A stretch of 64,000 bases of DNA from Lachnospiraceae bacterium P6B14 (GTDB lineage: Bacteria > Bacillota > Clostridia > Lachnospirales > Lachnospiraceae), in contig JHWZ01000005.1 in the NCBI GenBank assembly GCA_000687695.1, forward strand, positions 62,001 through 126,000. Reading direction: 5' to 3'. The translations under genes and the position numbers were made by a program. Below the pieces are notes generated by a model that saw nothing but the letters and a program-made list of their open reading frames with translations, did not search any database and was not told where the DNA came from. Below, piece after piece: positions 626-45,880 of this stretch (position 1 is its first letter; each line of letters opens with the position of its first letter).

Positions 626-1033
626 ATGAGAACAAAAAAAGTCATAGCATGCACATGCTTAGCGGCAGCACTTGTTTTCGGACTTGCAGGATGCGGCGAT
701 AAAGAGCCTTCAGCGAATACTTCATCAGGCAACGAAGAAAGTGAACAGTTAAGTGGCGGCTGGTCTGACTCGAGCTCGACTGAGCTGACCGGAGAACAGG
801 AGGAAGTATTTAAAAAGGCGCTGGAGACGTCCGGTGGTGACTATACTCCCATCGCATATCTCGCGAGCCAGGTTGTAGCCGGTACAAATCATTCATTCCT
901 TTGTAAGTCGGGAGATGATCAGTTTTTTGTCATTAAAGTTTACGAGGATCTACAGGGGCACTGCGAGATCACCGAAGTTGATGATGCAGACATGAATAAA
1001 TACGGCGACCTGATAAGAAGCGCCTCAGAATGA
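626..1033 (+). CDS. Cystatin (stefin)-like lipoprotein
   Basis: A 135-residue secreted lipoprotein. The signal peptide ends in the lipobox LAGC with Cys23 as the predicted lipid anchor, followed by a Ser/Glu-rich linker. Residues 44-115 resemble a single stefin/cystatin domain: a Gly-Gly-Trp at 44-46 where cystatins have their conserved N-terminal glycine, a predicted helix, then QVVAGTN at 82-88, which is the cystatin first-hairpin signature QxVxG and identical to the stefin loop. A strand resembling stefin (IKVYEDL, 103-109) follows. Cystatins inhibit papain-like cysteine proteases by inserting these segments into the active site; inhibition here is inference. The cystatin second-hairpin Pro-Trp is absent, as in stefins. 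A two-domain relative lies at 42694-43662. The protein probably faces the outside of the membrane. The gene has its own promoter and stands alone. Confidence 0.8.
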   Translation: MRTKKVIACTCLAAALVFGLAGCGDKEPSANTSSGNEESEQLSGGWSDSSSTELTGEQEEVFKKALETSGGDYTPIAYLASQVVAGTNHSFLCKSGDDQFFVIKVYEDLQGHCEITEVDDADMNKYGDLIRSASE

Positions 1034-6646: not shown

Positions 6647-6673
6647 AGCGATAATATGAAAGGGATATATAAC

Positions 6674-7102
6674 ATGAGAAAGAATACTTCTGAATTATTG
6701 AATGAGATCACTGCTTCGAAATCAATGGACAACTGGACAAAGACTCACTCCGACGCGATGATCGACGAGATGACTTTGGCAGAGTATCTCGAAGGGCTTC
6801 TGGCGGAGCACGGAATAAAGAAAAATGAGATCATCAAAAGATCAAACCTTGACCAGACCTATGGATATCAGATATTCCAGGGCATCAAGAAAAACCCTTC
6901 TCGAGAAAAGCTTTTGCGCCTGGCACTGGCGTTTCCTCTTACCGTTGACGAGACGAAGCGCCTGCTTTACTACGGAGGTGCAGAAACCCTTTATCCTCGT
7001 GTTCCCAGAGACGCATACCTGATGTTCGCCATCCATAATAGGTTCACGGTCATCGAGACAGATGACTATCTGGATGCGCATGGAGAGAAGACATTGGGGT
7101 GA
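6674..7102 (+). CDS. Small HTH (XRE-like) protein paired with the kinase
   Basis: A 142-residue cytoplasmic protein. Residues 30-85 look like an XRE/Cro-type helix-turn-helix: LAEYLEGLLAEHGI, then IKRSNLDQTYGYQIFQG, then REKLLRLALAF. The start at 6674 is chosen because AAAGGGA lies eight bases before it; an in-frame ATG at 6656 lacks a site. It follows the kinase gene closely, so it may act downstream of or be phosphorylated by it; that is inference. The last ten codons closely match the vestige at 1036-1068. Confidence 0.7.
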   Translation: MRKNTSELLNEITASKSMDNWTKTHSDAMIDEMTLAEYLEGLLAEHGIKKNEIIKRSNLDQTYGYQIFQGIKKNPSREKLLRLALAFPLTVDETKRLLYYGGAETLYPRVPRDAYLMFAIHNRFTVIETDDYLDAHGEKTLG

Positions 7103-42693: not shown

Positions 42694-43662
42694 TTATACT
42701 GCAAGCTCGTAAGCGTACTTAACGCTTGTTATATCTGCTCCGCTGAGATCCGGCTTGATCGCTACATCAACAAATGCGTATGAAGGATTGTCTCCCGGAT
42801 CGCTGTTCGGGATCTCGTACTCGCAGATCACCTTGTATGTGCCTGTGGAAGCCTGGTTCTCAACGATAGCTACCGGCTTGAGGTTTGCTTCTTTGTGTGA
42901 GGCGAACAGTGTAGCTGCTGCAGTTTTTACAACATCAGGGATGTTCACATCCTTAGATCTTTCCCAACCGCCCGGGATAACTTCCTCGGGAGCAGCCTCA
43001 AGACTCATATCGAACACACCACCTGTTAATCCCTGCTCAACGGGACTTGCGTTGCCATCGAGATCTACGTAGAACTCAACGATCGAGTAGGTAGTTTTCT
43101 TTGCGGGGGTGGTTACGTTTTTTCTGCAGAGAACTCTGTAGTTTGTTCCTGCTACGACCTGTGTAGCCAAAAGAGCTACCGGCTCATATGAAACGCCGTT
43201 GTTAGGATCTTTGAGAAGGAAATCGATAAAGCCCGCAAGATCACTTACGTCTCCCGGTTTATCGCATGTTTCCCATCCGCCGTCAATACCCGGTGCGGCG
43301 ATAACGGTTACCTTACACTTCAGAGTGAACTTTGTTACTTTTTTCTTTCCCTTGGCAACAGCCTTAACTGTGGCAGTGATGGTTGCCTTACCCGGAGCAA
43401 TACCCTCTACAACTCCCTTTTTGTTAACCTTTGCTATGGTCTTGTCGCTGGATGCCCACTTGATGGACTTGATCGTGAAGCCGTTCTTCTTTACGGAGAG
43501 CTCATCTGCCAGACCTTCTTCGATCCTGGTTGTTGACTTGTTAAGCTTTGGCTTCTTGGCGCTCTTTGCTGCGGATACCACAGGGCTTACAGCCAGAGCC
43601 ATCGCACAAACGAGAACGACAGCCAGTGATTTCTTAGCAAAGGCTGAGATTGTGTTTTTCAT
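42694..43662 (-). CDS. Secreted protein with Ig-like and two cystatin-like domains
   Basis: A 322-residue exported protein. Signal peptide at 1-32 (ending VVSAA). Residues 38-120 form a BIG2-like bacterial Ig domain (WASSDKTIAKVNKKGVVEGIAPGKATITA). Two cystatin-like domains follow, each opening with Gly-Gly-Trp (128-130 and 231-233). The first has the full inhibitor loop QVVAGTNY at 168-175, identical to stefins. The second has QASTG at 270-274, where the central Val is lost, so it may be inactive. Cystatins block papain-like proteases; inhibition is inference. It is related to the lipoprotein at 626-1033. The start at 43662 follows AGGAGG; the promoter is at 43712-43740. Confidence 0.8.
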   Translation of the reverse strand: MKNTISAFAKKSLAVVLVCAMALAVSPVVSAAKSAKKPKLNKSTTRIEEGLADELSVKKNGFTIKSIKWASSDKTIAKVNKKGVVEGIAPGKATITATVKAVAKGKKKVTKFTLKCKVTVIAAPGIDGGWETCDKPGDVSDLAGFIDFLLKDPNNGVSYEPVALLATQVVAGTNYRVLCRKNVTTPAKKTTYSIVEFYVDLDGNASPVEQGLTGGVFDMSLEAAPEEVIPGGWERSKDVNIPDVVKTAAATLFASHKEANLKPVAIVENQASTGTYKVICEYEIPNSDPGDNPSYAFVDVAIKPDLSGADITSVKYAYELAV

Positions 43663-43711
43663 ACTTATTACCTCCTGCTTCTGAATAATAATGGAACAAT
43701 ACAACAGTTAA

Positions 43712-43747: not shown

Positions 43748-45880
43748 TTATACTACCTTTATCTTTACAGTGACTGTTTTAGTGGCCGGAAGGAAGTTTT
43801 TGTTTCCGGCAGCAGCGATATTTACCTTCACCTTCAAAACGGTGCCTGCTTTGTACTTGCCTTTTTTGATGGTGATCGTGCCGTTTTTGTCGATAGAATA
43901 CTTCTTCGATGTGCATTTGTAGGTCACCTTTCCCTTGCCGCTTTTCACCTTGATCGCCTTTTTGATGGCCACATCAGCTTTTTTCAGCTTTATGGATTTA
44001 ATAGTCTTTGTATCGGCCTTAACAGTCATCTTCTGTTGTTTTATGGACGGGTTAGCGGCCGCTTTGCCGAGAACATCCAGGTCGTAGAAAAGTGAATAAT
44101 CCTTATTTCCTTTTGCGTCAGTCTGTACGAGGTTAACGTTTACGGCTGCTCCGCCGTCTAAATCTGTTTTTCCGTCGGAATGCATTGATTTTATCGGACC
44201 TGAGATTAAATTGCACGTGTAATCAGACATATGCATGATACTTAACATGCAGGTTCCACCGGAGCTTTTTTCCCCTATGATGGGAATACCGACCTCCGAG
44301 GACAGACACGGGAGGGTGTTTGCCGCTGAATATGAATACTCTGACGTGAGAATCGCAAAATCGAAATCATATTGAAGTTCCTTGTCTGCTTCATCAAATT
44401 TTCCATCCAGGTTCAAATCGTAATCACATGCGTCGTAAGCCAACGATCCGGATATGGCATCTATGCTAACATCTGTGAATATCGTATTCTTCGTATTGTT
44501 TTTGATTTTATCAAGGATGGTACACATATAGTAACAGGCTACGAGCAGTCCACCTCCGTTATTTCCGAGATCGATTATGAAACTCCCTGCGCCCTTTTCC
44601 CTGGCCAGATCCAGAGCCTCTTTAAACGCATATATACTTGCTTTATCAAACTCATCAAAGGAGAACAGTGCAGTCGTACCTTCCATTATGAGTACCTGAC
44701 CGCCTTTTCCTGCATTTATCGAAGCTATACCACCATTCCACTCTTTGAGAACAGTTTTTTTGCCATACGCGTCATCAAATGCATGTATACGTATATCGGT
44801 CAGACCGGAAGTCTTATTCGCGACCTCCGCCGAAGTATCTACACCGAGACGTGCAGCCTGTGCAAGAGGATCCTTTCCGGGATTCATAATCTTATCAATA
44901 AACCCCTTATACACCGGGCTTTCCCTGTACTGACCCAAACTTCCTGCTAAGTTCGTATGTCCCTGGTCGTAGAAATAATTCATGAGAGCGAGCATGGCAA
45001 GATTGTTTTCAACACGGTTAGTGCTTTTAAGCGAAGCCTTCAATCCCGGGACTTCTTTATCCAGCTCATCAAGAGTTTTATCAAGCCCCACAGACTCAAC
45101 GGATGAAGCAATCTTTGCCTGAGTAGGCTTGCCATATATATGATCTATCATAAAGCAAAACTCGTTATAATTGAAAGCGGCAAACGTCTCTGAAAACTCG
45201 GATGATTCATAGAGCGACGACTGCTCCTCGGCGCAGTAGACAGGTGTCCCGCCTGACATACCTTCTAACAAATCCATTGTATGTATGAAATACAGTTTTC
45301 CGTTTAAGTACTCTGCTGCGTTGTAGGTAGCTATAAACAGATCGTTCAGCGTCGGCAGAGGCAGATAAGCCTTATCATCCTTTTCTATGAGATCTATACC
45401 ATAGTCGCTCAAGGCAAGAGTTACCGGCTTGGCGGATATATGAGATAAATCGTCGGCTCCCCTGACCGGAAGATCAGTTGTGTCTTCGATACCATCCTGG
45501 TTAGTCCTGTTGCCGCAAATGAATACATAAATTGAACTGGAACTCAGGCTATCTTTGTTTACGTCGATCGTCATAGTCGCGTCATGGTCGTCCTTTATCT
45601 CGTAAACCCCGGAATCTGTCTTTTTCTCTTTGAAATCGGTTTCATATATCGTATCGAGGTAGTTCTCCACGCTTACGTAGGGAACCTCAGGAAGGTCGCT
45701 CGGGATATAAATATCCATCTTTCCTGTTTTTTCTTTACTAAACAGATATGTGGTTACCGTTTTCTTTTCGTAGGTCACCTTTTCTTCTGCTGCTATAGCC
45801 TGCTTTGTAGCAGGGATGCTCGCAATCGTACCGAATACCAGCGAGAACATGAGCAGCAAAGACATTAGTTTTCTCTTCAT
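43748..45880 (-). CDS. Secreted S41-family peptidase with basic C-terminal module
   Basis: A 710-residue exported protein. Signal peptide at about 1-31. The C-terminal-processing-peptidase (S41) core lies at about 370-600: FIIDLGNNGGG, the serine segment EYSYSAANTLP, and the lysine segment IGEKSSGGTC. Its N-terminal 350 residues are not recognised. A lysine-rich Ig-like module of about 90 residues ends the protein (IKKGKYKAGTVLKVKVN, TVTVKIKVV) and resembles the one at 7210-8712. The usual PDZ domain of CtpA is not evident. AGGAGG precedes the ATG. The cystatin-like gene follows, on its own promoter. Confidence 0.82.
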   Translation of the reverse strand: MKRKLMSLLLMFSLVFGTIASIPATKQAIAAEEKVTYEKKTVTTYLFSKEKTGKMDIYIPSDLPEVPYVSVENYLDTIYETDFKEKKTDSGVYEIKDDHDATMTIDVNKDSLSSSSIYVFICGNRTNQDGIEDTTDLPVRGADDLSHISAKPVTLALSDYGIDLIEKDDKAYLPLPTLNDLFIATYNAAEYLNGKLYFIHTMDLLEGMSGGTPVYCAEEQSSLYESSEFSETFAAFNYNEFCFMIDHIYGKPTQAKIASSVESVGLDKTLDELDKEVPGLKASLKSTNRVENNLAMLALMNYFYDQGHTNLAGSLGQYRESPVYKGFIDKIMNPGKDPLAQAARLGVDTSAEVANKTSGLTDIRIHAFDDAYGKKTVLKEWNGGIASINAGKGGQVLIMEGTTALFSFDEFDKASIYAFKEALDLAREKGAGSFIIDLGNNGGGLLVACYYMCTILDKIKNNTKNTIFTDVSIDAISGSLAYDACDYDLNLDGKFDEADKELQYDFDFAILTSEYSYSAANTLPCLSSEVGIPIIGEKSSGGTCMLSIMHMSDYTCNLISGPIKSMHSDGKTDLDGGAAVNVNLVQTDAKGNKDYSLFYDLDVLGKAAANPSIKQQKMTVKADTKTIKSIKLKKADVAIKKAIKVKSGKGKVTYKCTSKKYSIDKNGTITIKKGKYKAGTVLKVKVNIAAAGNKNFLPATKTVTVKIKVV

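Follow-up and report, generated by a model that had tools for sequence, protein, structure and literature searches.

Stefin A (cystatin A), which we take to belong to MEROPS class I25A, starts with Gly-Gly, as does the domain described here. Stefins in the strict sense consist of a single domain of about 100 residues and have no disulfide bridges. The second hairpin carries Leu-Pro in stefins and Pro-Trp in cystatins, and type 2 cystatins have two conserved disulfides in addition to the Pro-Trp hairpin. The chagasin fold differs from the cystatin fold. Kininogens contain two inhibitory cystatin-like domains, according to the available part of PMC10380794. Stefins have been described as signal-less, intracellular proteins, and chagasins (I42) as inhibitors of papain-like enzymes that are found in bacteria (available text of PMC2784779). 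The same source, published by Kordis & Turk in 2009, reports bacterial stefins from eight phyla, and among Firmicutes from Clostridia only. Horizontal spread was proposed there for these patchy bacterial stefins and host proteases were proposed as their targets, while an endogenous role was thought unlikely, as chagasins would serve it. Bacterial stefins, including those of Clostridia, have thus been reported before, and the idea of a bacterial stefin is itself not new. Among the matches listed in literature searches and judged by title, none was an assay of a bacterial stefin.

The window analyzed here is the whole 64,000-nucleotide stretch of DNA. It contains, near its start, a gene for a stefin-like lipoprotein that is composed of the following parts.

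626..1033, + strand: gene for a 135-residue stefin-like lipoprotein (ORF, stefin A match at E = 3e-4, predicted fold)
626..694, + strand: putative lipoprotein signal peptide with an RTKK n-region, a hydrophobic core and the lipobox LAGC (residues 20–23) with Cys23, assigned by eye
695..751, + strand: polar/acidic linker from the lipid anchor to the domain, from the sequence; codons 1–42 are the fastest-changing (pN 0.27)
755..763, + strand: Gly-Gly-Trp (residues 44–46; SGGW at 43–46), at the position of the cystatin N-terminal glycine, from the sequence
791..832, + strand: central helix of the AlphaFold2 model (model residues 16–29; about 56–69 of the protein)
869..883, + strand: predicted first inhibitory hairpin QVVAG, residues 82–86 (QVVAGTN at 82–88), from sequence and constraint
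947..961, + strand: second hairpin DLQGH, residues 108–112, between model strands 59–67 and 73–80

The ORF start is immediately preceded by GGGAGGAAG, which is ribosome-binding-like by eye. The N terminus of the protein reads MRTKKVIACTCLAAALVFGLAGC and is, also by eye, consistent with a lipoprotein signal. Read against the lipobox consensus, the positively charged n-region, the hydrophobic stretch and the lipobox ending in Cys are all present, and LAGC with Cys23 agrees with an earlier sequence-only reading of the gene as encoding a bacterial lipoprotein. Lipoprotein models in Pfam and NCBIfam give weak, sub-threshold matches to the signal region. On this basis, the product is probably exported and membrane-anchored. 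The conserved N-terminal glycine of the cystatin superfamily (I25) is matched by G44 and G45. Cys93 and Cys113 are the only two cysteines in the stefin-like domain. In the phmmer alignment, DLQGH pairs with the SLPGQ stretch of stefin A; the glycine is kept, without Pro-Trp or Leu-Pro. Ahead of the gene, positions 1–202 of the window form a tandem repeat with a unit of 85 bases and 2.4 copies.

The protein was compared by phmmer with 177,635 distinct PDB sequences. Cystatins and stefins are the best 8 of the 12 matches listed, and stefin A is matched at E = 3.2e-4 with QVVAGTN identical in the alignment, in line with the stefin A-like strand and loop claimed earlier. The reversed mature sequence, used as a control, gave five PDB matches, no cystatin and no passing stretch; its best E value was 6.2e-3, so that the noise floor falls short of the real match by roughly an order of magnitude. 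At E ≤ 1, a profile built from 13 family domains (A1) reached 21 PDB sequences; 18 of these bear the name cystatin, stefin or sialostatin, and the best E is 0.0019. Other single family members match the PDB weakly, at E = 0.6 (first domain of the gene at 42694–43662) and E = 0.4. The Pfam Cystatin model (PF00031) has no match in the 626–1033 protein or in seven further family proteins scanned. In the whole source genome it has none above the cut-off and a single one below it (E 0.26), in a four-domain paralogue. NCBIfam gave the 626–1033 protein only sub-threshold matches, mostly to lipoprotein signal regions. With PDB sequence matches on one side and a silent Pfam model and weak single members on the other, the kinship of the protein to stefins is, from sequence, real but distant. 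The family is probably under-annotated, since none of the eight family proteins scanned received the name cystatin from Pfam, and the 626–1033 protein received no name from NCBIfam.

The first hairpin of the cystatin superfamily carries QxVxG, which is present as QVVAG at residues 82–86. Read in six frames, the window has 264 open stretches of at least 70 residues (44,141 residues in total). The pattern QxVxG occurs five times in them, three times in unrelated frames. The stricter QVVAG occurs twice in these stretches, both times within stefin-like family members.

The structure of the domain was predicted by AlphaFold2 from a five-row alignment of the window protein, its relatives at loci L032 and L033, and the two domains of the 42694–43662 gene. 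The model has a pLDDT of 89.2 and a pTM of 0.81. It is sequentially composed of strand 6–8, helix 16–29, strands 34–43, 47–55, 59–67 and 73–80, and helix 83–94. The predicted structure matches the superfamily fold of one helix and an approximately five-stranded antiparallel sheet in the order β-α-β-β-β-β. A Foldseek search of the PDB with this model returned 310 matches at E ≤ 10, none of them at E ≤ 0.001. The first 12 of the 50 listed rows are all stefins or cystatins, with TM scores by query length of up to 0.61. Stefin A ranks first, with an E of 5.6e-3, a probability of 1.00, a TM score of 0.59, an rmsd of 4.2 Å and 26% identity. The model thus has the cystatin topology and is moderately close to PDB cystatins. 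The sequence-only reading had foreseen a helix wrapped by a sheet and the order GGW, helix, QVVAGTN, strands. The prediction and Foldseek, in which stefin A is the top-ranked PDB fold, bear out the former, and all elements follow in that order in the ORF translation and the model.

The protein was further compared with two relatives. That at L033 (ONKC01000002.1, 'uncultured Clostridiales bacterium isolate RUG381', in which RUG presumably denotes a rumen genome) shares 73% identity with the window protein along the best segment when the full-length proteins are compared, and 82% within the domain stretch; its lipobox is less regular (CVGC). Between the two genes, codons 70–96, which hold the QVVAG loop, differ by 13 synonymous and 0 nonsynonymous changes. 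Nonsynonymous differences number 10 in codons 43–69, 11.5 in codons 97–135 and 26 in codons 1–42 (signal and linker). Synonymous sites are near saturation, so the ratios are rough, but the contrast between codon blocks is still clear. Constraint within the gene is strongest in the loop block. The protein at L032 (CAMVOY010000051.1, uncultured Lachnospiraceae bacterium) is 98% identical to the window protein, and the ORFs of this record equal those of contig C51 in genome G061. A gene for 142–148 residues lies between the stefin-like and PAP2 genes in L032 (1344–1772) and after a kinase gene in the window (6656–7102).

A chance resemblance in an unrelated lipoprotein could account for the silence of Pfam, for a reversed control that reaches E = 6e-3, and for the first domain of the 42694–43662 gene, which matches the PDB at E = 0.6 and yields a model too weak for use (pLDDT 64.0). 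The motif order, the fold, the constraint on the loop, the paralogues and a bacterial relative in another phylum nevertheless agree with one another. The phmmer match to stefin A, the cystatin rows of Foldseek and the reversed control led us to reject a chance match, which we regard as hardly credible.

The ORF, the lipobox, the stefin kinship, the predicted fold, the loop constraint and the paralogues with the same loop are directly supported. The predicted fold, stefin A as the best fold match, the lipobox and the conservation of the loop also support the earlier view of the protein as a cystatin-type inhibitor. From sequence and model, we consider it likely that the product is a surface-held wedge inhibitor of papain-like proteases. 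A lipid on Cys23 would hold the cystatin-fold protein on the outside of the cell membrane. Together, the N-terminal Gly-Gly segment and the two hairpins, QVVAG and DLQGH, would make up a wedge that would enter papain-like cysteine proteases close to the cell surface and plug their active-site cleft. Surface proteins may be protected in this way.

A second family member is encoded in the window, and the source genome contains 12 stefin-like domains in six proteins (profile A1, E ≤ 0.001). The sequence-only reading mentions neither this second gene nor the paralogues. The other members are listed below.

42694..43662, − strand: exported protein that combines two stefin-like domains with an Ig-like Big_2 domain, from profile and Pfam
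43030..43284, − strand: stefin-like domain 1 of this protein, QVVAGTN kept
42715..42975, − strand: stefin-like domain 2 of this protein, loop degenerate (NQASTG)
L110, about 31 kb upstream: 237-residue paralogue with one domain and Big_2
L111: two paralogues, one of 630 residues with four domains and Big_2, the other of 335 residues with two domains
L036: paralogue, a 233-residue frame with two domains

For the gene at 42694–43662, the ATG at 43662, which lies behind GGAGG, is preferred as start over the TTG at 43704. The gene is directly adjoined by one for an S41-type peptidase (window 43748–45880, − strand; PF03572, E 8e-10). In G061 (L104), a like 710-residue ORF stands beside the two-domain stefin-like gene, judged by ORF ends only. 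In two genomes, the gene for the exported one-domain stefin-like protein has a DUF4317 gene as its neighbor (L110:7535–8665, assigned by Pfam, and L103:9196–10323, judged by ORF ends only).

QxVxG is kept in four of the 12 domains, including that of 626–1033, and in 24 of the 59 distinct domain stretches across all loci examined, near-identical relatives being counted in. The fold thus also serves without the classical loop, which is missing from the other eight domains of the source genome. These eight favor a cystatin-fold binding or spacer module that does not inhibit proteases and whose conserved loop binds another partner. So do the Big_2 scaffolds that carry stefin-like domains and a frame in genome G022 that combines such a domain with Amidase_3 and NlpC/P60. 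Loss of inhibition is also stated to have prevailed in vertebrate families (available text of PMC2784779). The 626–1033 copy, however, keeps the Gly-Gly, QVVAG and the glycine of the second hairpin, and its loop block is the most constrained, which makes a non-inhibitory module rather unlikely for this protein. The G022 frame (L121:273–3149; 959 residues) consists of Big_2, a cystatin-like domain, Amidase_3 and NlpC/P60. Its composition raises the idea that the domain keeps NlpC/P60 enzymes, papain-fold cell-wall peptidases of the same cell, in check, a role that IseA plays in Bacillus subtilis. The loop of this fusion is degenerate (QTDIGQ) and it is one case only; we find such a role improbable. 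Inhibition of papain-like proteases at the cell surface remains our preferred reading of the 626–1033 protein.

Profile A1 finds the stefin-like family in 12 of the 39 genomes of the genus. In a sample of the phylum, it occurs in four of 398 genomes, the source genome included, one of the four being a 44-residue frame with an internal stop. A 109-residue relative is present in a phylum member (L117). A plasmid of Persicobacter sp. JZB09 (CP012852.1), the only matching record among 72,556 plasmid records, carries an unannotated stefin-like ORF of 100 residues (L163:3968–4270), which is 43.6% identical over query residues 1–71 (E = 2e-7). A viral origin was considered and set aside: two scans of viral_contigs returned 5 and 11 stretches that match a pattern, and at that sensitivity no relative was confirmed. 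A match in a phage collection to the first domain of the 42694–43662 gene (E = 5e-3, 36 residues, an unverified clone) was dropped, because no ORF of at least 60 residues on that strand covers the matched stretch. An rpoB tree covers 34 of the 39 genomes and nine of the 12 carriers; G003, G007, G008, G010 and G061, three of which are carriers, have no rpoB row. Seven of the carriers in the tree cluster together; the other two are G014 and G033, whose stefin-like proteins are short and have no obvious signal. G021, which bears neither the stefin nor the C1 trait, sits on a huge branch, probably owing to a wrong frame for a short stretch. The patchy distribution fits horizontal spread.

The proteases that the predicted wedge would target may be foreign or the cell's own. 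The family of papain (C1, PF00112) is matched in the source genome in three places at E ≤ 0.001, five at E ≤ 0.1 and seven at E ≤ 1, in five frames. Three of its C1 proteins (L112, L113 and L114) have exported-looking N termini and Cys in a catalytic context. A further C1-family protein (L115:3156–4511, contig C13) is lipoprotein-like, and its catalytic Cys-Trp reads Gly-Trp (RTGWVYA); judged by this replacement, the catalytic Cys seems lost and the protein is possibly a pseudo-protease.

Staphostatins shield against the cell's own staphopains. In the same manner, the lipoprotein could be an endogenous regulator that protects the cell against the C1 proteases it secretes itself, a role suggested by the three exported-looking proteins. 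Chagasin (Inhibitor_I42, PF09394) was found in none of the 39 genomes of the genus at E ≤ 0.01, so the argument of Kordis & Turk against an endogenous role has no force in this genus. Genes for C1 and for stefin-like proteins also co-occur, with C1 in nine of the 12 carriers and six of the 27 non-carriers (Fisher p = 0.0035), and in 8/9 versus 4/17 of the 26 genomes of at least 90% completeness (p = 0.003). A further C1 protein in carrier G008 brings the former count to 10 of 12. As proof of an endogenous target, however, this co-occurrence was rejected, because it is confounded by descent. Counts of S8 proteases differ at the same level of significance, being lower in carriers (medians 5.5 versus 10, p = 0.0035), and on the rpoB tree the stefin trait needs only three changes and gives two independent pairs, too few for a test.

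Two other observations argue against endogenous regulation. The gene neighborhood with C1 is loose in the two near pairs found (G011:C6 and G009:C99), which are separated by other ORFs. In addition, G061, a near relative that is 96% complete, keeps both the 626–1033 and the two-domain genes and has no PF00112 match at E ≤ 1. It has no match to L113 at E ≤ 1e-5, and its match to L112 is limited to residues 588–774, outside the C1 domain. G061 yields three domain matches and lacks nine of the 12 stefin-like domains of the source genome, so the missing C1 may reflect a loss or gap of broader extent. We regard endogenous regulation as a real possibility, with a chance somewhat short of even.

Between foreign proteases and the cell's own secreted C1 enzymes, the balance is about even, with a bare lean to foreign papain-like enzymes, namely cathepsins of ciliates or the host. 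The rumen ciliate literature, in the texts available, describes expression of cathepsins B and F and of cysteine proteinases with signal peptides in Entodinium caudatum (PMC6925433), and inhibition of rumen protozoa by iodoacetamide, used as a cysteine-protease inhibitor, which was the least effective of three inhibitors tried (PMC6908469). A broader and doubtful scenario is that gut-type Clostridia of one clade acquired a stefin of eukaryotic type, placed it on the surface and multiplied it into proteins of one to four domains. These would serve as armor against cathepsins, either from ciliates that feed on bacteria or from the animal host, and the degenerate copies would be diversified relatives. 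As the genus has exported C1 proteases and a stefin-like family that is exported and constrained in its loop, and no chagasin was detected in it, the question of own versus foreign targets is directly testable. Should a cathepsin of a ciliate or of the host prove to be the target, the family would offer a molecular way into the question of how bacteria of the gut withstand digestion.

The known inhibitors can be compared with the 626–1033 protein in turn. A chagasin identity was rejected, as the protein has no PF09394 match. Like type 2 cystatins and kininogens, it appears to be exported; unlike type 2 cystatins, its domain has only two Cys and no Pro-Trp. Stefin A is the best match in both sequence and fold, and shares the helix, the identical QVVAGTN and the order of strands. 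The 26% identity in the structural alignment, the lipoprotein signal, the linker and the C-terminal helix set the protein apart from stefin A. Its domain is of stefin size but follows the lipoprotein signal LAGC at residues 20–23, so by sequence the protein is stefin-like rather than a stefin (I25A) in the strict sense. The Persicobacter ORF resembles it in its LLGGW, its QVVAGMN and the glycine of the second hairpin, and differs in having no obvious signal peptide and in belonging to another phylum (Bacteroidota). The bacterial stefins of Kordis & Turk share the patchy presence, the QxVxG loop and Clostridia among the carriers (PMC2784779). In the main text of that paper the word lipoprotein has no occurrence, and its available part describes a triplicated cystatin domain in Polaribacter, but no Big_2 scaffold or multi-domain stefin. 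Judged by that paper's description, the exported, lipid-anchored and multi-domain forms described here look like a variant of the known bacterial stefins.
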